NCBI RefSeq assembly: GCF_900104925.1 | Contig: NZ_LT629735.1 | Span: forward strand, 1,706,291-1,770,290 | Source: Opitutus sp. GAS368 | GTDB taxonomy: Bacteria; Verrucomicrobiota; Verrucomicrobiia; Opitutales; Opitutaceae | Direction of reading: 5' to 3' | DNA: 64,000 nucleotides | In this document: positions 40,890 through 49,999 of the stretch, piece after piece | How positions within the stretch are numbered: the stretch's first letter is position 1 | Layout: each line of letters begins with the position of its first letter | The notes under the pieces: model-generated | The model's database searches: none | What the model saw: only the letters and a program-made list of their open reading frames with translations | Told to the model about the DNA's origin: nothing | Translations under genes and position numbers: made by a program

Positions 40890-41501
40890 TCAGCGCTTCG
40901 GCGCGTGGCGCTTTTCCAGGACCGTGAGGGCGTCGCCGAGCGACATCTTCTTCACGCGCAGCAACACGATCAGGTGATAGAGCAGGTCGGCGGCCTCGCC
41001 GGCGAACTCCGCCTTGTCGTTCTTCAGCGCCGCGAGCGCCGTTTCGACGCCCTCCTCGCCGACCTTCTGCGCGACGCGGGCGACACCTTCCTTGGCCAGG
41101 CGCACCGTGTAGCTCTTCTTGTCGCCGCTCTTGAGGCGGGCGACGATCGTGCGCTCCAGCTGGGCGAGAAAACCGACGCCGCTGGCACCGTCGTCACCAA
41201 AACAGCTCGGTGTGCCGCGGTGACAGGTCGGGCCGTCGGGCCGGGCGGTGACGAGCAGCGTGTCGTTGTCGCAATCAACCTTCACGTCCACGAGGTGCAG
41301 GAAATTCCTCGACGACTCGCCCTTGGTCCAGAGCCGCTGCTTGCTGCGGCTGAAGAAGGTGACCTTCTTCGTGCGCAGGGTCTTCTTCAGCGCGGCGGCG
41401 TCCATGTAGCCGAGCATCAGCACCTGCAGGGTGGCGGCGTCCTGCACGATGGCGGGCACGAGGCCGGCGTTCTTCTTCCAGTCGAGTTTCGGGAGTTTCA
41501 T
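40890..41501 (-). CDS. hisIE: bifunctional phosphoribosyl-AMP cyclohydrolase / phosphoribosyl-ATP pyrophosphatase
   Basis: A 203-residue fusion catalysing steps two and three of histidine synthesis. The HisI part has MLGYMDAAALKKTL, TFFSRSKQRLWTKGESS and DCDNDTLLV...PTCHRGTPSCF, which hold the metal-binding Cys/His/Asp residues. The HisE part has VRLAKEGVARVAQKVGEEGVETALAAL and EAADLLYHLIVLL. The fusion and its place as the last gene match the enterobacterial operon. An 81-base gap with a palindromic repeat separates it from hisF. It converges on the decaheme cytochrome gene with four bases between. Confidence 0.96.
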   Translation of the reverse strand: MKLPKLDWKKNAGLVPAIVQDAATLQVLMLGYMDAAALKKTLRTKKVTFFSRSKQRLWTKGESSRNFLHLVDVKVDCDNDTLLVTARPDGPTCHRGTPSCFGDDGASGVGFLAQLERTIVARLKSGDKKSYTVRLAKEGVARVAQKVGEEGVETALAALKNDKAEFAGEAADLLYHLIVLLRVKKMSLGDALTVLEKRHAPKR

Positions 41502-41582: not shown

Positions 41583-42350
41583 TTATGGGCGGATGGAAAT
41601 GCCGTCGGCGATGAGTTGTTCCTTCAGAGCGGGAATCTTGATGGTGCCTTTGTGGAAAACGGACGCGGCGAGCGCGCCGTCCACACCGGCGAGGCGGAAA
41701 ACATCATGGAAGTGGGCGATGGTGCCCGCGCCACCGGAGGCAACGAGCGGAATGCGCAGCACGTCGCGCACAAGCTTCAGTTGGGCGAGATCATAACCCT
41801 GGCGCATGCCGTCCTGGTTCATGCAATTGAGGACGACCTCACCGGCGCCGAGCTTCTGCGCCTCGCGCGCCCAGTCGATCGTCCGCCAGCGCGTGGACTG
41901 CGTCTTGTCCGGGTCGCCGGTGTATTGCTTCACGAAGTAGTCGCCGGCCTCCTGCCGGCTGTCGATGCCGACGACGACGCACTGCGAGCCGAACTCGGTG
42001 GCCAGCTCGGTGATGAGCGCGGGATTTTCCAGCGCGGGCGAGTTGATGGAGATCTTGTCGGCGCCGCCGTGCAGGATTTGGCGCGCGCCGTCGAGCGAGC
42101 GAATGCCGCCGGCCACGCAGAAGGGGATGTCGAGCACGCGAGCGACGCGGGTCACCCAGTCGGTCGAGACCGTGCGGCCGTCGCTGCTGGCGGTGATGTC
42201 GTAGAACACCAGCTCGTCGGCGCCCTCGTCGCGATAGCGCTGGGCCAGCTCGATGATGTCGCCCACGACCTCGTGGTCGCGAAACTGTGTGCCCTTGACG
42301 ACCTGGCCGTCGCGGACGTCGAGGCAGGGGATGATGCGGCGGGCTAGCAT
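41583..42350 (-). CDS. hisF: imidazole glycerol phosphate synthase, cyclase subunit
   Basis: A 255-residue (beta/alpha)8 barrel. With HisH it converts PRFAR and ammonia to imidazole glycerol phosphate and AICAR. The catalytic Asp residues lie in [17 protein letters not shown] (start) and [11 protein letters not shown], with phosphate-binding loops [13 protein letters not shown] and [13 protein letters not shown]. The start is ATG 42350 (MLARRI). The frame runs upstream into a palindromic repeat. Confidence 0.97.
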
Positions 42351-42358
42351 GGGTAAAA

Positions 42359-42447: not shown

Positions 42448-43176
42448 TCAACATGCGAGAGCCTCCTTCAGCGTGAACTTCTTTTCGTAGAGCGCCCGGC
42501 CTACGATGGCGCCGGCGCTGCCGGTGGTCTTCAGCCCACGCAGGTCGTCGAGCGACGACACGCCGCCCGAGGCCTGGATTTGCAGGGAGGGAAATTTCTT
42601 CACGAGTCGGGCATAGAGGGCGCGGTTCGGGCCCGTCAGCTTGCCGTCGCGGCTGATGTCGGTGCAGAGGATGTGGACCAGCCCGGCCAGGAGAAACCCG
42701 GTGAGGAAATCGTCCAGCGCCACGCCGGTGCTTTCCTGCCACCCGGCGGCGGCCACGCGGGGAATGCCGGCGACATCGAGGCGGACGTCCGGCGATAGGA
42801 TGATCTTTTCCGGACCAAACTTCCTGAGCCAGTCGTGGACCAGCGCAGGCTGCCTGACGGCGACACTGCCGACGATGACCCGTTGGGCGCCGGCGGCGAG
42901 GAGCGCGGCAATCTGCGACTCGTCGCGGATGCCGCCGCCAGTCTGCATGCGCAGGCCGCTGCCGCGGGCGATTTTCTCGACCAGCGCCGTCTGGCGCTTC
43001 GCGGGATCCTTGGCGCCATCGAGGTCGACGACATGCAGCCACGTGGCGCCGGACGCGGCGAAATCCTGCGCGACGGCGAGCGGGTCGTCGCCGTAGGATT
43101 TCTCCTGGTCGAACCTGCCTTCGGTCAGGCGCACGACGCGGCCCCCGCGGAGATCGATGGCGGGATAAATAATCAT
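42448..43176 (-). CDS. hisA: phosphoribosylformimino-AICAR ribotide isomerase
   Basis: A 242-residue (beta/alpha)8 barrel isomerising ProFAR to PRFAR. The start [19 protein letters not shown] contains the general-base Asp; the second catalytic Asp is in [16 protein letters not shown]. Phosphate loops are [30 protein letters not shown] and [16 protein letters not shown]. All are standard. It lies between hisH and hisF as in enterobacteria. Confidence 0.97.
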
Positions 43177-43231: not shown

Positions 43232-43825
43232 TCATACGCGGCCCTCCACGAAGTTTTGCAGCAGGCGGGCGCCGGCGACGCCGGAACGTTCGGGGTGGAA
43301 CTGGCAGCCGGAAAAATTGCCCCGTTGCACGATGGCGGCGAACGGCGTGCCGTGCCGGCAGCTGGCCTGCGTGAAGGCGTTCACCGGCGCGGCGTAGCTG
43401 TGAACGAAATAGAAGCGGGCTTCCGGCTCGATGCCGTCGAGCAGGCCGACCTCGCGGCCGGTCGTGAGCGTGTTCCAGCCCATGTGTGGCACGGTTATGC
43501 CGGGCGAATCGGGCAACAGGGCCACCTGGCCGGGAATGATACCGAGCGTCGACGTGTTTCCTTCCTCGGAAGCCTCGAACAACAGCTGCATGCCGAGGCA
43601 GACGCCGAGCACGGGTTGCGTCAGGCCGCGCACGCAATCCACGAGGCCCTTGGCCTGCAGGCGCTTCATGCCCTCCACAGCGGAACCGACGCCGGGCAGG
43701 ATGACGCGCTCGGCCGCGCGGATGACCGCGGGGTCTGCGGTCAGCTCGCTGTGAAGGCCGAGCCGCTCCAGCGCGAAGCGCACGGAGGCGATGTTGGCGC
43801 CGCCACTGTCGACGATGGCTAGCAT
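43232..43825 (-). CDS. hisH: imidazole glycerol phosphate synthase, glutaminase subunit
   Basis: A 197-residue class I glutamine amidotransferase feeding ammonia to HisF. The nucleophile Cys is in QPVLGVCLGMQLLFEAS; the catalytic His-x-Glu is in FSGCQFHPERSG. LPGVGSAVEGMKRL is the oxyanion-strand region. It precedes hisA with a short gap holding the palindrome TAGTCTGATAGACTA. Confidence 0.96.
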   Translation of the reverse strand: MLAIVDSGGANIASVRFALERLGLHSELTADPAVIRAAERVILPGVGSAVEGMKRLQAKGLVDCVRGLTQPVLGVCLGMQLLFEASEEGNTSTLGIIPGQVALLPDSPGITVPHMGWNTLTTGREVGLLDGIEPEARFYFVHSYAAPVNAFTQASCRHGTPFAAIVQRGNFSGCQFHPERSGVAGARLLQNFVEGRV

Positions 43826-43901: not shown

Positions 43902-44966
43902 TCAGAGAACTCCCTTGGTGCTGGGTATGTCGCCGTCGAGGCTGCGGGTGGCGGCCGTGCGCAACACCCGGCCGAAACCCTTGAAGAGGGTTTCGACCAT
44001 GTGGTGCGTGTTCTCGCCCTTCACGCTCATCTGAAGCGTGGCCGCCAGCGCGTCGCTGAGCGAACGGAAGAAGTGCGGCACGAGCTCCGTCGGCAGCTCG
44101 CCGACGACCTCGCGCGGAAATTTGCCCTCGAAGGTGAAATAGGCGCGGCCGCTCAGGTCGAGCGCGATCTGGGCCTGAGCCTCGTCCATCGGCAGCACGA
44201 AGCCATAGCGGCCCACGCCGCGCTTGTCGCCCAGGGCCTGCCGGAGCGCGGTGCCGAGGGCGATGCCCACGTCCTCGACGGTGTGGTGCTCGTCGATCTC
44301 GAGATCACCCTCGCACTTGATGGCCAGGCCGATGCCGGCGTTCTTCGCGATCTGCTCGAGCATGTGGTCAAAGAAACCGATGCCGGTGGCCAGTTGCGCG
44401 GGCGCGGGCGTGTCCAGATCAACCGCGACGGTGATCTTGGTCTCCTTGGTATTGCGGACAATGGTGGCGCGCCGGGGCCCGACGGCAATCACGCGGGCAA
44501 TTTCCGTCCAGCCGAGAGTCTTCCGGTCGTAACGGAAGCTACGCACGCCAAGGTTCTGCGCGAGCTGCACGTCCGTCTCGCGGTCGCCGATGACTGCGGA
44601 CGACTCGCGCGACCAAGACACATCCTTCACGTAGTCGGTGAGCAAGCCGGTCTTGGGTTTGCGGCAGTCGCATTTGTCCGCCGTGGTGTGCGGGCACACG
44701 CGCACGGCCTCGAAGGCGATGCCTTGGGAGGCAAGGATGTCGAGCAGCAGCTTCTGCAGCGGGCGGAACTCCTCCTCGCGGAAACTCGGCGTGCCCAGGC
44801 CGTCCTGGTTGGTGACCATGACAAACGTCCAGCCGGCATCGCGCAGCCGGAGCAGGGCGGGGATGCAGTCGGGCTCGAGGACGAACTTGTCGAGGCGGTC
44901 GATCTGCTGGTCGAACGGCTCCGCAATGAGCGTGCCGTCGCGGTCGATGAACAGGATTTTCTTCAT
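43902..44966 (-). CDS. hisB: bifunctional histidinol-phosphatase / imidazoleglycerol-phosphate dehydratase
   Basis: A 354-residue fusion for steps seven and nine. The N-terminal HAD phosphatase has KKILFIDRDGTLIAEP (nucleophile Asp), MVTNQDGLGTPSF and the zinc-binding CPHTTADKCDCRKPKTG. The dehydratase starts near residue 167 (RRATIVRNTKETKITVAVDLD) and has GFFDHMLEQIAKNAG, EIDEHHTVEDVGIALG and the C-terminal GENTHHMVETLFKGFGRVLR, all metal-binding. This fused form is typical of enterobacteria and some Bacteroidetes and is otherwise uncommon. Confidence 0.97.
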   Translation of the reverse strand: MKKILFIDRDGTLIAEPFDQQIDRLDKFVLEPDCIPALLRLRDAGWTFVMVTNQDGLGTPSFREEEFRPLQKLLLDILASQGIAFEAVRVCPHTTADKCDCRKPKTGLLTDYVKDVSWSRESSAVIGDRETDVQLAQNLGVRSFRYDRKTLGWTEIARVIAVGPRRATIVRNTKETKITVAVDLDTPAPAQLATGIGFFDHMLEQIAKNAGIGLAIKCEGDLEIDEHHTVEDVGIALGTALRQALGDKRGVGRYGFVLPMDEAQAQIALDLSGRAYFTFEGKFPREVVGELPTELVPHFFRSLSDALAATLQMSVKGENTHHMVETLFKGFGRVLRTAATRSLDGDIPSTKGVL

Positions 44967-45056: not shown

Positions 45057-46154
45057 TCACACACGGGACAAAACCTCCAGGGTGGCGTTGTTTTCCTCGG
45101 CGGTGCCGACGGTGATGCGGATGCAGTTGGAAACGTCCTTGCTGCGGTCGCGCCAGATGACGCCGGCGGCGCGGCCGGCCATCATGGCCCGGGTGGCATC
45201 GGCGACCTCGACGAGCAGGTAGTTGGCATCGCTCGGCCAGACGTGCTTCACGGCCGGCAGCTTCGGTAGCGCCACGGCCAGACGGGAGCGCTCGGCAACG
45301 ATCGCGGCAACGGAATTCCTGGCAGCGACGAGACCGGCCGGGGTGAGGGCGGCGAGGGCGGCAATCAGCACCGGCGCCGGCACCGGGTAGGGTGCGATCA
45401 CCTTCTGCAATACAGCGATCACGGCCGGGTCGGCGATGGTCGTGCCGACGCGGGCGCCGGCGAGGCCGTAGGCTTTCGACAGCGTGCGCAGGACGACGAG
45501 ATTGGGATTCACCGGGATCTCGGCGGCAAGGCTCGGTTGGCCGGAGAAATCCACATAGGCCTCGTCCACCACCACGACCGCGCGGCCCGCAAGCGATTTG
45601 ACCAGCGACAGCACCGCGGCGCGCTCGAGCAGGCCGCCGGTCGGGTTGTTCGGTGAACAGAGGAAGACAAGTTTCACCTCCGGCGTCCCGCCTTCGCCAG
45701 ACGGCTTCGACGCGGCAAGGACGGCCTTGAGCACGGCGGCGGCATCGAGCGCGAAGTTTTTCTCCCGGATGAGCGGCACGGTGACGGTGCGGGCGCCTTG
45801 GATGCCGGCAGCAACGACATACATGCCGTAGGTCGGCGGCGTGATGAGGATGGCGTCCTGCCCGGCGCGACAAAACGTGCGCAGGAGAAGATCGATGCCC
45901 TCGTCCGAGCCGCGAGTCACAAGCACCTGCGCGGCGGCGACGCGGTAGAGCGCGGCCAGCTGCGCGACCAGATCGGCCGGCTGCGGCTCGGGGTAGCGGT
46001 TGAGCAACGGCTTCGCGGCGGACGGAGTCTGAGGGTTTTCGTTCGCGTCCAGCCAGACGCGGCCGCCCTTGGATTCCTTGCGGGCCGAGCTGTAGGCCGT
46101 CAGCGCGAGGATGTCGGGGCGGACGAGGGAGAGAACTTGGTCGACAGAAGGCAT
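45057..46154 (-). CDS. hisC: histidinol-phosphate aminotransferase
   Basis: A 365-residue PLP enzyme of fold type I. WLDANENPQTP is the substrate-binding start; FLCSPNNPTGGLL and VVVDEAYVDFSG (PLP-contacting Asp and Tyr) are followed by LVVLRTLSKAYGLAGARVG with the Schiff-base Lys. The end contains SDANYLLVEVADA and DVSNCIRITVGTAEENNATLEVL. The gene starts 15 bases after the hisD stop, with a palindromic repeat overlapping the hisD end. Confidence 0.96.
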   Translation of the reverse strand: MPSVDQVLSLVRPDILALTAYSSARKESKGGRVWLDANENPQTPSAAKPLLNRYPEPQPADLVAQLAALYRVAAAQVLVTRGSDEGIDLLLRTFCRAGQDAILITPPTYGMYVVAAGIQGARTVTVPLIREKNFALDAAAVLKAVLAASKPSGEGGTPEVKLVFLCSPNNPTGGLLERAAVLSLVKSLAGRAVVVVDEAYVDFSGQPSLAAEIPVNPNLVVLRTLSKAYGLAGARVGTTIADPAVIAVLQKVIAPYPVPAPVLIAALAALTPAGLVAARNSVAAIVAERSRLAVALPKLPAVKHVWPSDANYLLVEVADATRAMMAGRAAGVIWRDRSKDVSNCIRITVGTAEENNATLEVLSRV

Positions 46155-46157
46155 GGC

Positions 46158-46219
46158 TGTAGCGGCGGTCTATGATCGCCGCCGATTGTTTTTACGGCGG
46201 TCATAGACCGCCGCTACAG
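46158..46219. repeat. palindromic repeat overlapping the 3' end of hisD
   Basis: CTGTAGCGGCGGTCTATGAT (46158) and its mirror GTCATAGACCGCCGCTACAG (ending 46219) enclose a short AT-rich centre. The stop codon of hisD at 46170 and the last ~15 hisD codons lie inside it. Confidence 0.8.
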
Positions 46220-47513
46220 AAATATCATCCAGGCGGACGCGCACCGCGCGCTGGTGGGCGGCGAGGCCCTCGGCCAGGGCGAGGCGCTCGACGACCGGCC
46301 CGAGCCTTTGCAAGCCGGCCTGGCTGGCGGTTTGCACGGTCATGGTGCGTTGAAAATCGGCGAGCCCCAGGCCGCTGCAGGCGCGGGCCCAGCCATAGGT
46401 GGGCAGCACGTGGTTGGTGCCGCTGGCGTAATCGCCGAGCGACTCGGGGGTCAGGTCGCCGAGGAAGACGGAGCCGGCGGTGGTGACGGAAGCCAGCAAC
46501 GCGCGCGGGTCGGCCACCTGCAGGATGAGGTGTTCGGGAGCGTAGGCGTTCGCGATGACGACGGCCTCGGCGCGATTCGCCGCGACAAAAATGCGGCTCC
46601 TGGCCAGGGCGCGGCGCGCAATAGCGGCGCGCGGCAAGGTGGAGAGCTGGCGCGCCAAGGCGGCCTGGACGCGGGCGGCGAATTTTTCGCTGAAAGCGAC
46701 GAGCACCACTTGCGAATCCGGGCCGTGTTCGGCCTGCGAGAGCAGGTCGGCAGCGACAAAGGCGGGGTTGGCGCGGTGGTCGGCGATGACGAGCACCTCG
46801 GACGGGCCGGCGGGCAAGTCGATGGCGGCCCCGGCGGCGTCGCGGGCGACCTGCTGCTTGGCTTCGGTGACGAACGCGTTGCCCGGGCCGAAGAGCTTGT
46901 CGCATTTCGGAATGCTGGCCGTGCCGTAGGCCAGCGCGGCGATGGCCTGCGCGCCGCCGACCTTGTAGACCTCGGTGATGCCACAAAAACGCGCGGCGCA
47001 GAGGATCCACGGGTTGATGCGGCCGTTTTTGTCCGGCGGAGTGCAGAGGACGCGCACCGGGTTGCCGGCGAGCTGCGACGGCACCCCGAGCATGAGGGCG
47101 GTCGACGGCAGCGGGGCGCTGCCGCCCGGCACGTAGAGGCCGACGCGGCCAACCGGGCGGACGGTTTTCTCGCAGACGATGCCCGGTTGGGTTTCGATGC
47201 GGAGAGCGCGCGGCTGCTGCGCGGCGTGAAAGGCGCGGATATTCCGGTAGGCGGTGCGCAGCGCGGCCAGGTCGGCGCGCGTCAGGGATTTCTCCGCGGT
47301 GGCAAACTCCGCCGCGCTCACGCGCAGCGAGCGCAGGGTCACCCGGTCAAATTTCTCCGTGAGGCGGCGGAGCGCCGCGTCGCCGTCGCGGCGCACGGCT
47401 GCGACGATCGTCCGCACGGCGGCGGCGACCGCCGGCTGCGCCGACTGGGCCGGACGGCGGAGCGCGGCGGTCTGGCGGGAGGCGGAGAGTTTTTTCCAGA
47501 TCAACGGTTTCAT
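46170..47513 (-). CDS. hisD: histidinol dehydrogenase (C-terminal tail formed by a repeat)
   Basis: A 447-residue enzyme oxidising histidinol to histidine in two NAD+-dependent steps, using zinc. GRVGLYVPGGSAPLPSTALM, VGGAQAIAALAYGT, FGPGNAFVTEAKQQV and DLPAGPSEVLVIAD are the conserved core; SQAEHGPDSQVVLVA and GTNHVLPTYGWARACSGLG supply zinc and catalytic residues. The family normally ends at about HQRAVRVRLDD. Here the frame continues as ISVAAVYDRRKNNRRRS, which is encoded by the palindromic repeat at 46158-46219. Confidence 0.95.
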   Translation of the reverse strand: MKPLIWKKLSASRQTAALRRPAQSAQPAVAAAVRTIVAAVRRDGDAALRRLTEKFDRVTLRSLRVSAAEFATAEKSLTRADLAALRTAYRNIRAFHAAQQPRALRIETQPGIVCEKTVRPVGRVGLYVPGGSAPLPSTALMLGVPSQLAGNPVRVLCTPPDKNGRINPWILCAARFCGITEVYKVGGAQAIAALAYGTASIPKCDKLFGPGNAFVTEAKQQVARDAAGAAIDLPAGPSEVLVIADHRANPAFVAADLLSQAEHGPDSQVVLVAFSEKFAARVQAALARQLSTLPRAAIARRALARSRIFVAANRAEAVVIANAYAPEHLILQVADPRALLASVTTAGSVFLGDLTPESLGDYASGTNHVLPTYGWARACSGLGLADFQRTMTVQTASQAGLQRLGPVVERLALAEGLAAHQRAVRVRLDDISVAAVYDRRKNNRRRS

Positions 47514-47614: not shown

Positions 47615-48526
47615 TCAGAGCATCATCTTCTCGATCGGCAGCACGAGGATGCTGCTGGCGCCGGCCTTCTTGAGCGATTCCATGGTCTCCCAGAAGACGG
47701 CCTCCGAGCAGACGGCGTGGAGCGCGACCTTGGTGTCGTCGCCGGCCAGCGGGAGGATGGTGGGATTCTCGGAGCCCGGCAGGAGCTTCTTGATCTGGTC
47801 CAGCGAGGCCTTGGGGGCGTGGAGCATGATGTATTTCGTGTCGGCGGCCTTCTGCACGCCGTCGAGGCGGCGGAGCAGGATCTCGAGGGCGTGCGACTTC
47901 TCGGCCGCCAGCTCGCGGGCGTTGCGGAGCAGCACGGCCGTGCTCTTGAAGATGGTCTCGACGGCGCGGAGCTTGTTGGCCTCGAGCGTGGAGCCGCTGG
48001 CGACGAGGTCGCAGATGACGTCGGCCAGGCCGAGGCGCGGGGCGATCTCGACGGAGCCGCTGAGGTAGACGACCTCGGCCTTGATCTTCTGCTCGTCGAG
48101 GTAGCGCCTGGTCAGCTGCGGGTAGGAGGTGGCGATGCGCAGACCCTGCAGGTCCTTCACGCCGGCGTAGGGCTTCTCCTCGGGGAGGGCGAGGGCGAGG
48201 CGGCAGCCGCCGAAGTCGAGCGAACGCTCGACGAAGTAACCGCCCGCCGTGCCGTTGGTGCGGCGCTCGAGCGCGGCCTCCTCCAGGACGTTGGTGCCGA
48301 CGATGCCGAGGTCGCACACGCCGTCCATGACGAGCTGCGGGATGTCGTCGTCGCGGACGAAAAGGATATCGATGGGGAAATTCTCGGCGTGGAGGAGGAG
48401 CTTCTCCTTGGGCGACTTCACGCGGATCCCGCAGCTTTTGAGCAGGTCGAGCGAATCAGTGGAGAGCCGGCCGCTTTTCTGGAGGGCGAGGCGGAGGCGG
48501 TCTTTGGGCGTGGTGATGGGAGGCAT
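47615..48526 (-). CDS. hisG: ATP phosphoribosyltransferase, long form
   Basis: A 303-residue enzyme for the first, feedback-regulated step. [23 protein letters not shown] begins the catalytic domain; [20 protein letters not shown] and [32 protein letters not shown] bind PRPP. The C-terminal ~80 residues ([30 protein letters not shown]) are the ACT-like regulatory domain of HisG-long, so no HisZ is needed. The ATG at 48526 is preferred; a TTG three codons earlier is possible. The attenuator leader lies 130-260 bases upstream. Confidence 0.97.
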
Positions 48527-48652: not shown

Positions 48653-48689
48653 AAAGAAAACCCCCGGCGGATGCACCTGCCGGGGGTTT
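48653..48689 (-). terminator. his attenuator: intrinsic terminator upstream of hisG
   Basis: On the minus strand AAACCCCCGGC, a ten-base loop and GCCGGGGGTTT form an 11-bp stem running straight into TTTTCTTT. It lies between the leader peptide and hisG, so it would end transcription before the structural genes. On the plus strand it has no functional U-run. Confidence 0.85.
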
Positions 48690-48730
48690 GGAAAATCGGG
48701 TTCCATCTGCCACGGGCAAGGCGCTCCAGG

Positions 48731-48749
48731 CCTTCCCGAGGAGGGAAGG
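48731..48749 (-). promoter_or_regulatory. pause-type hairpin directly after the his leader peptide
   Basis: CCTTCCC-TCCTC-GGGAAGG: seven-base perfect arms immediately after the leader stop codon. Farther downstream GTGGCAGATGG (48713-48703) can pair back to the His codons (CCATC and CCAC, 48768-48759), or forward to CATCCGCC at the terminator, the alternative pairings expected of an attenuator. Confidence 0.65.
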
Positions 48750-48785
48750 CTAGCTCACGTGGTGATGGTGGTGGTTCGAAACCAT
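48750..48785 (-). CDS. hisL: his operon leader peptide
   Basis: ATG at 48785 encodes MVSNHHHHHVS followed by TAG: five consecutive His codons (CAC CAC CAT CAC CAC) in an 11-codon frame. In enterobacteria, HisL (seven His in 16 residues) senses charged tRNA-His: ribosome stalling at the His run favours the antiterminator. The same parts are present here in the same order, in front of a complete his operon on the same strand. No strong Shine-Dalgarno was identified. Confidence 0.85.
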   Translation of the reverse strand: MVSNHHHHHVS

Positions 48786-48889
48786 GGACTGAGGGTCGCT
48801 TTGATGGCTCCGGTCCGGGGGTGGCGCAAGTATTTTCCTGTGGCGGCGGGGCGCCGACTGCGCAACTTGGTGCGTCATAAGCGACAAGC

Positions 48890-49999
48890 ATGGCGCCGCA
48901 AACCTACCAGCCGGGAGGGAAAACCATCGTGGGAGCCGTGATCACGGTGGCGGCGGTCTATGCCTACTTCCTGATTTTCGCGCAGTTTGGTTTCCTGCGG
49001 GCGGTGCAGGCGGGGCTGGGCGAAGGCGTCGGAGTGGTGCGACCGATCATGGCGGTGATGGGCCTGGCCGGGGTGGCGGGCAGCGTGTTGGCCGCGCGGG
49101 TTTTCAAGGAGGCGCGCGGCCGGTCCTTGCTGGCGGCGGGCCTCGGGGTTTGTGCCGGTGGCGCGGCCGGGTCGATGGCGGTGCAAACCATGGCGGGATA
49201 TTATGGCGCGGCCCTGCTGACCGGGCTGGGCACGGGGCTGGTGACCGTCACGCTGGCGGCGATGCTGCGCCCGGCGGTCGGGGATGCGCGCCTAGGGCTA
49301 ACCATCGGGCTGGGCACGGGGCTGGCCTATGCGTTTTGCAACCTGCCTGCGGTTTTTGAGGCCGGTGCGGCGACCCAGGCGCTGCTTGCCCTGCTCGCAG
49401 TGGGCATCGGTTTGACGGGTGGCCGCATGCTCGTGCCCCGAGTTGCGACGGGCGCACCGGTGGCAGGCGATTACTCCAAGGGCGGGATCGCGGCGTGGGT
49501 GGTGGTTTTCATGGCGTTGGTCGCCCTCGATAGCGCCGCGTTTTATGTCATCCAGCACACCCCGGCGTTGAAGGAGGCTTTATGGACCGGCTCCGGCCGG
49601 CTGGTGTTGAATGCCGGCGTGCATCTGGGCGCGGCCGTGCTGGCGGGTTGGGCGCTCGGCCAGGGCTGGCTGGGGCGGACGGTTTTGGCCGGAGCGGCTT
49701 CGCTGCTGATTGCCGGCCTTCTGATCAACGGAGAAACGCCGGTGCCGGCGGCGGCCGGATGGCTTTATGTCGCCGGGGTGTCGGCCTACTCCGTGGCGCT
49801 GGTGTATTATCCGGCGCGCAGCGGCCGGTCCGGGCTAGCCGCTTGGGTTTATGCGGTGGCCGGATGGGGCGGTTCGGCGCTAGGCATCGGCCTGGCGGAC
49901 GGGCGGTCGCAACTGCCCGCCGGGCCGGTCATTGGCGCGGGGACGCTGATCCTGCTTGGCTTGCTGCTCAGGAACCGGTTCGCATGCCGTGTGACGTAG
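48890..49999 (+). CDS. MFS-like membrane protein, unknown substrate
   Basis: A 369-residue protein with about ten to eleven helices, for example VGAVITVAAVYAYFLIFAQFGFL, IMAVMGLAGVAGSVLAARVF and LTGLGTGLVTVTLAAML. LAARVFKEARGRSLL resembles the MFS loop 2-3 motif, but the total length is short for an MFS protein. It is divergent from the his leader. No substrate clue in the context. Confidence 0.7.
   Translation: MAPQTYQPGGKTIVGAVITVAAVYAYFLIFAQFGFLRAVQAGLGEGVGVVRPIMAVMGLAGVAGSVLAARVFKEARGRSLLAAGLGVCAGGAAGSMAVQTMAGYYGAALLTGLGTGLVTVTLAAMLRPAVGDARLGLTIGLGTGLAYAFCNLPAVFEAGAATQALLALLAVGIGLTGGRMLVPRVATGAPVAGDYSKGGIAAWVVVFMALVALDSAAFYVIQHTPALKEALWTGSGRLVLNAGVHLGAAVLAGWALGQGWLGRTVLAGAASLLIAGLLINGETPVPAAAGWLYVAGVSAYSVALVYYPARSGRSGLAAWVYAVAGWGGSALGIGLADGRSQLPAGPVIGAGTLILLGLLLRNRFACRVT

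Follow-up and report, generated by a model that had tools for sequence, protein, structure and literature searches.

A predicted hisL-like histidine attenuator upstream of a gammaproteobacterial-type his operon in Opitutaceae

Results

The region upstream of hisG in the window (the whole 64,000-nucleotide stretch of Opitutus sp. GAS368 DNA under study) contains an unannotated leader that is, with high confidence, a ribosome-mediated his attenuator of the hisL kind that an ancestor of some Opitutaceae acquired along with a gammaproteobacterial-type hisGDC[NB]HAF[IE] operon. The leader is real and conserved, and it is very probably functional. The elements of the leader are as follows.

48825 to 48830, minus strand: -35-like element CTTGCG of the predicted leader promoter
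48801 to 48806, minus strand: weak, putative -10-like element CATCAA, placed by eye, 18 nt past the -35-like element
48750 to 48785, minus strand: leader peptide frame MVSNHHHHHVS, stop TAG
48759 to 48773, minus strand: segment A, the five control codons CAC CAC CAT CAC CAC
48743 to 48750, minus strand: segment a, GCCTTCCC, partner of b
48730 to 48737, minus strand: segment b, GGGAAGGC, partner of a or c
48714 to 48724, minus strand: segment c, GCGCCTTGCCC, partner of b or d
48703 to 48713, minus strand: lid, GTGGCAGATGG, complementary to the His codons and present in the MFE fold
48673 to 48681, minus strand: segment d, GGCAGGTGC, antiterminator partner within the terminator 5' arm and loop
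48653 to 48688, minus strand: intrinsic terminator, AACCCCCGGC...GCCGGGGGTT + TTTTCTTT, present in the MFE fold

A conserved histidine frame precedes hisG

A sequence-only reading of this DNA had placed an 11-codon frame with five His codons ahead of hisG on the minus strand, and the frame is present at 48785-48750 (ATG GTT TCG AAC CAC CAC CAT CAC CAC GTG AGC TAG). When the 600 nt preceding hisG were shuffled 5000 times with dinucleotides kept, a short frame with four or more His in five codons appeared twice. Five consecutive CAY codons match eight times at six places in the 4.15-Mb genome, and the other five places all lie within longer frames. Conservation was counted over 31 non-duplicate Opitutaceae loci with the window-type hisG; duplicate loci (L056-L069, L072-L078, L080, and L131) and L079, which is not from Opitutaceae, were left out. 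A His frame with 3 to 6 His codons lies upstream of hisG in all 31 loci, and its recurrence in these relatives is the strongest counter-argument to a chance origin of the leader. The leader peptides are 9-11 codons long and include MVLNHHHHHVS, MIRNHHHHHAS, and MSLHHHHHRR. The 149 codons from first to last His comprise 91 CAC, 56 CAT, one CCC, and one CTC. The check proposed by the sequence-only reading, conservation of the His run and terminator in relatives, came out positive, with both kept in 31/31 loci. Mean identity is 68% in the leader block, 25% in the spacer between terminator and hisG, and 21% further upstream.

The motif CTTGC is located 41-51 nt before the leader start in 30/31 loci. 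A scan with the sigma-70 consensus found no promoter at the leader. The weak CATCAA element picked by eye would imply a 5' UTR of ~10 nt, and a Shine-Dalgarno-like core precedes the frame in 0/31 leaders. The locus without CTTGC is L031, the closest relative by HisG (97%). Its sequence before the leader start is unrelated, and its leader, MGFHHHSPLS, has three His codons only. This upstream region comes from a MAG, and rearrangement or assembly artefact are candidate causes.

Of 21 genomes in the genus, 19 carry the window-type hisG, and the 18 copies besides the window's are 77-97% identical to it. Within the family, 20/200 genomes match hisG at E≤1e-50 (11 from the genus, 8 from g108, and 1 from g81). 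Within the order, 123/177 genomes match at E≤1e-20; three belong to the genus, and the others are 26-37% identical. No leader-model match above 8 bits was found at the best 27 hisG loci from Opitutales outside the genus, two of which belong to the same family, and a frame with 3 His in 7 occurs at 1 of these 27. A scan of the phylum with the leader model gave matches at E≤0.1 in 108 of 387 genomes. Eight places score at least 122 bits, all in the window's own genus or g108, and the next match scores 35.6 bits. The weak matches (22 loci, L152-L173) are mostly gene-end terminators, and plain terminators reach up to 31.1 bits in the 387 Verrucomicrobiota genomes.

Alternative RNA pairings are conserved

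The 143-nt RNA folds at -58.6 kcal/mol compared to a shuffle mean of -46.65 (sd 4.07; z -2.94), and 0/200 dinucleotide shuffles matched it. Because the MAFFT alignment misplaces segment c by one base at an extra G, the counts of a:b, b:c, c:d, and terminator pairs use anchored blocks for all 31 sequences. The hairpin proposed immediately after the stop exists, but GCCTTCCC/GGGAAGGC forms 8 bp rather than a perfect seven and begins on the last base of the stop codon. The a:b helix is paired in 244/248 cells, a value reached by 308/2000 shuffles, and with no excess over shuffles it was dropped as covariation evidence. The b:c helix is paired in 248/248 cells, a value reached by 1/2000 shuffles, with 3 both-side changes; such changes, here and in c:d, represent few independent events because the 31 sequences are related. 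Its inner five positions are paired in 155/155 cells (slid controls, 0.23-0.61), and 14 of the 31 sequences, the window included, contain a 1-nt bulge. In L044, for example, matching changes in b and c come at the cost of one a:b pair. The c:d helix is paired in 160/186 cells over six positions, with 0/2000 shuffles reaching this value, and in 146/155 cells over its central five, a fraction that drops to 0.24-0.52 on sliding by 1-3 bases. Its third pair is U-A in 15 sequences and C-G in 9, a double change, whereas one or two pairs are broken in L036-L040 and one in L043. The both-side changes in b:c and the U-A/C-G exchange in c:d amount to some covariation in relatives, which the sequence-only reading had proposed to look for.

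The terminator proposed earlier was confirmed with a stem of 10 bp rather than 11. AACCCCCGGC/GCCGGGGGTT occupies 48688-48659, TTTTCTTT follows at 48660-48653, and the stem is paired in 246/248 cells (0/2000 shuffles). It was missing from the terminator-scan list because its loop is 10 nt and the scan allows 3-8. The conserved alternation is a:b versus b:c (GGGAAGGC:GCCTT[G]CCC) versus c:d (GYGCC:GGYRC) versus the terminator.

The lid, GTGG.TGATGG, was suggested to pair back to the His codons, and this is possible in 30/31 loci, where the helix it forms with the leader frame, chiefly with the His codons, scores at least 14 in a count made with no shuffle control. The forward pairing suggested for the same segment, GTGGCAGATGG:CATCCGCC, is the best helix in the window but is not conserved. 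It is the top ungapped helix in 5/31 sequences (the window and 4 relatives), and at least 7/8 pairs form anywhere in the terminator in 11/31. It was rejected as the conserved antiterminator, and GYGCC/GGYRC is conserved instead.

The his operon is of gammaproteobacterial type

The complete enterobacterial gene order, hisGDC[NB]HAF[IE], lies downstream of the terminator in the window.

47615 to 48526, minus strand: hisG (TIGR00070, 190 bits), start ATG 48526 or TTG 48535
46170 to 47513, minus strand: hisD (TIGR00069)
45057 to 46154, minus strand: hisC (TIGR01141)
43902 to 44966, minus strand: bifunctional hisB, phosphatase and dehydratase (NF003937, 523 bits, cut-off 443)
43232 to 43825, minus strand: hisH (TIGR01855)
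42448 to 43176, minus strand: hisA (TIGR00007)
41583 to 42353, minus strand: hisF (TIGR00735)
40890 to 41501, minus strand: hisIE fusion (NF002747)

PMC8305728 describes the fused hisNB as thought to be gammaproteobacterial in origin and suggests that it may have spread to others together with some or all of the operon. Identity to the window's eight his genes is 50-71% for L079, a locus from a groundwater MAG labeled Gammaproteobacteria, and 38-67% for the Yersinia, Sodalis, and Orbaceae loci, in the same GDCBHAFI order. HisG rows outside Opitutaceae were a subset of the best 80 of 104 pattern-scan matches. An 86-row HisG tree unites the 31 Opitutaceae (100/98), places L079 as their sister (100/95), and attaches both to Enterobacterales and Orbaceae (100/98). 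Its remaining Opitutales fall outside a group (100/100) made up of these taxa, the other Proteobacteria, and Bacteroidota, a placement that carries a long-branch warning. A 51-row tree that left out the other Opitutales and held 12 of the 31 Opitutaceae rows plus 11 loci around L079's genome keeps the grouping (99/98, 99/96, 99/96). These 11 loci were drawn from 43 matching genomes among 59, and a search of the stretch ahead of hisG for His frames gave one with 3 or more His in 7 at every one of them. The window's own genome contains one hisG match.

On these data, the whole operon is of gammaproteobacterial type. The simplest account is a single lateral gain of operon and leader with loss of the resident hisG. 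Genes and switch alike look like an old transfer, probably from a proteobacterium. The sequence-only reading considered such an attenuator notable in a verrucomicrobial-type genome. It is present, and the puzzle is reduced by the operon type: an attenuator would occur in a verrucomicrobium because of lateral transfer, given the HisG grouping and the ~30% identity of the other Opitutales HisG.

Could the attenuator have arisen independently in Opitutaceae in front of the acquired operon, rather than from a gammaproteobacterial leader? We consider such convergence unlikely. Its His_leader score lies under the Rfam cut-off, and his attenuators exist in several Firmicutes lineages according to PMC9413887. 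The enteric helix between the His codons and the after-stop stretch (A:B) scores at least 14 in 2/31 loci, but the score does not discriminate, as three enteric controls reach 10-13; aligned to the Rfam model, the window has mostly gaps or non-standard pairs at this helix. A model built from the 31 leaders detected 7 of 24 sources, with 55.3 bits for L079 and 29.5-40.6 bits for 6/6 enteric or Orbales leaders, and gave no match before hisG in the 17 alphaproteobacterial, other proteobacterial, and Bacteroidota sources. The lower enteric scores overlap the best plain terminators and are informative mainly by their place, because plain terminators reach 31.1 bits. Against convergence, all parts come in the same order, each of the two leader models picks up the other group's leaders, L079, whose HisG is sister to that of the Opitutaceae, contains the same set of parts, and the loci around L079's genome carry His frames. 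A shared origin with the gammaproteobacterial leader is the better reading.

Ribosome position is predicted to set the RNA structure

In the proposed switch, RNA polymerase would start ~10 nt ahead of the leader ATG. When charged tRNA-His is scarce, the ribosome would stall at the first four His codons. Segment a would then be free to pair with b, leaving c for d, and c:d formation in the 5' side of the terminator would allow read-through. In the opposite state, b:c would form, d would take its own 3' arm, and the transcript would end near 48653. The lid might close the His codons when there is no translation, although the folds give no support for this step.

For the 31 sequences (28 at His4, 25 at His5), a ribosome assumed to cover 14 nt counted from its A site was placed in turn on every His codon and on the stop, and the RNA past it was folded. 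With d transcribed, mean P(c:d) was 0.80, 0.83, 0.90, and 0.85 at His1-4 and fell to 0.44 at His5 and 0.46 at the stop; the ribosome-free value was 0.73. Mean P(b:c) was 0.03, 0.03, 0.01, and 0.04 at His1-4 and rose to 0.48 at His5 and 0.50 at the stop; the ribosome-free value was 0.09. These position-dependent means indicate that an early stall would favor the antiterminator and that arrival at the stop would favor b:c. In the folding model, this contrast is the polarity expected of a his attenuator. The idea that the lid shuts the switch when translation is absent is not supported by the model, in which the mean P(c:d) remains 0.73.

The comparison of folds suggested by the sequence-only reading thus gave a switch in the means over 31 sequences but not in the window alone at equilibrium. 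With d transcribed, the window sequence had c:d at 0.94-0.99 at all ribosome positions, the stop included; therefore, termination would need b:c to form first and hold, and the model rests on folding order. When only c is transcribed, b:c in the window goes from 0.00 at His1 to 0.99 at the stop. Across the set, b:c then exceeds 0.5 at the stop in 31/31 sequences, but already does so at His1 in 12/31 and at His3 in 14/31. Within this model, early b:c formation tells against a simple version of the switch. PMC1183508 describes an extra hairpin between the pause hairpin and the terminator of the enteric his leader, and b:c occupies its place here.

It is quite improbable that the leader is a relic in which a real terminator is constitutive or vestigial and the histidine response has been lost since the donor. 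This reading would draw on the unproven translation of a leader with a very short 5' UTR and no Shine-Dalgarno-like core, on the failure of the window sequence to switch in the equilibrium fold, and on the degraded leader of L031. However, the His codons have been kept through silent C/T changes, and the pairings have been kept with compensating changes next to a spacer of 25% identity. A terminator of an upstream gene beside an unrelated His-rich frame has almost no probability: an intrinsic terminator is present and many weak matches in the phylum are plain gene-end terminators, but the next annotated-size frame upstream (48890-49999) is divergent on the plus strand, so the terminator ends no co-oriented neighbor gene, and the His run and terminator occur together in 31/31 loci.

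Candidate attenuators at other loci

A candidate isoleucine attenuator was observed in other Opitutaceae before a gene named by likeness as citramalate/isopropylmalate synthase-like (L189, L190, L194, L196, L199-L202, L207-L209, and L213; also L173 and L157/L186). Short frames, of which MTDRRITAAIIIITAHQPGRHDAA is an example, and T-tract terminators of the form CCCCGGG..CCCGGGG make up these leaders. Among 29 full-flank loci from the best 30 of 51 matching genomes, 12 have an Ile-rich frame, 13 have a terminator, and 10 have both. No isoleucine leader was found before the same gene in the window's own genome.

A candidate ilv attenuator was observed in f57, a more distantly related family of Verrucomicrobiota (L152, match 227-370; L164; L172). 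Ile/Val/Leu-rich frames, MSISLANMIIVIIVSVSVLLGVSALRVLPDCS in L152 and MSISLANTTIVIIISVIVLLGVSALRVLPENS in L164, are followed by a terminator. L152 is the best weak match of the his model, at 35.6 bits, and has a leader-like frame; a frame further on presumably resembles acetolactate synthase.

His-rich frames were also observed in other phyla. The nine Bacteroidota his loci that were read (L125, L127-L130, and L132-L135) all have ATG frames with 3-4 His in 7, located 126-201 nt upstream of hisG (for example, MNSNNHTHHHFLTNR), and the Opitutaceae model has no match there. These frames are possible his attenuators. L116, an alphaproteobacterial MAG, has a frame ending in ..MNHHRLHHVHHHAHHHHG ~250 nt upstream of hisG, and the count does not exceed 3 His in 7 at the other seven loci from alphaproteobacterial or unplaced proteobacterial sources.

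Discussion

We rate as somewhat more likely than not a history in which a his operon, complete with its coupled transcription-translation switch, crossed from Gammaproteobacteria to Verrucomicrobiota and took the place of the resident hisG. In this history, compensatory changes would have kept the cassette functional on a different, nearly leaderless, Shine-Dalgarno-free transcript, in a phylum that may also attenuate isoleucine and isoleucine/valine genes. This suggests that such a switch may travel with its operon and survive a foreign RNA polymerase and foreign ribosomes. The range of translation-coupled his attenuation would then include a phylum without a report of it in our literature search; the searches covered his attenuation and leader peptides in Verrucomicrobia or Opitutus, where an earlier report is possible, and his attenuation in Bacteroidetes, which also gave none. 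The test case sits in a genus that has described species (Lacunisphaera).

Rfam gave no match in the window at the gathering threshold. RF00514 (His_leader) matched over its full length with 30.5 bits (E 0.0043, 501 nt), below the cut-off of 49, and had the top bit score among nine sub-threshold Rfam matches. NsiR1 scored 29.3 bits with an E-value below that of His_leader, and it covers the terminator part only; NsiR1, P15, anti-hemB, and the other sub-threshold matches were attributed to terminator likeness or chance. The Yersinia and Sodalis controls scored 114.6 (L082) and 86.7 (L081) bits with His_leader. The cut-off was passed by 0 of 17 further Opitutaceae loci and not by L079. It thus missed 18/18 tested loci of the clade, the window included, and routine annotation leaves the leader blank.

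Outside the enteric bacteria, PMC9413887 describes his attenuators in some Firmicutes (three lineages) and also names Proteobacteria. The Firmicutes attenuators are similar in having three to five consecutive His codons, a terminator, and an antiterminator, but they belong to another phylum, and the likeness is one of description rather than sequence. For Actinobacteria, a search for His leader peptides is cited in PMC4833913.

The L079 leader is another comparison. MTRHHHHHRLHT, GCCTTC/GGAAGGC/TTGCCTTC, CGTGGTCGATGA, and the terminator are all present there; the linker to the terminator is shorter than in the window, and L079 is a MAG contig, JACPFT010000011. We take segments a, b, c, d, and e to be equivalent to enteric segments B-F, a mapping of our own onto lettering that we assume. 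The Opitutaceae leader differs from enterobacterial hisL in being GC-rich, in its 9-11-codon peptide and lack of a Shine-Dalgarno-like core, in its score below the Rfam cut-off, in His codons that can pair with a lid past segment c, and in the b:c bulge of 14/31 sequences. It resembles hisL in the position of segment a directly after the stop (TAGTCTT.. in the Yersinia and Sodalis loci), in leader models that cross-detect both ways, and in the succession of His run, b:c hairpin, antiterminator, terminator, and then hisG of a GDC[NB]HAF[IE] operon. Conservation and pair counts lend good support to the enterobacterial kind of attenuator claimed by the sequence-only reading, with a different antiterminator. 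By its sequence, the leader is best described as a his attenuator of the enteric kind that lies outside the Rfam family as now defined.
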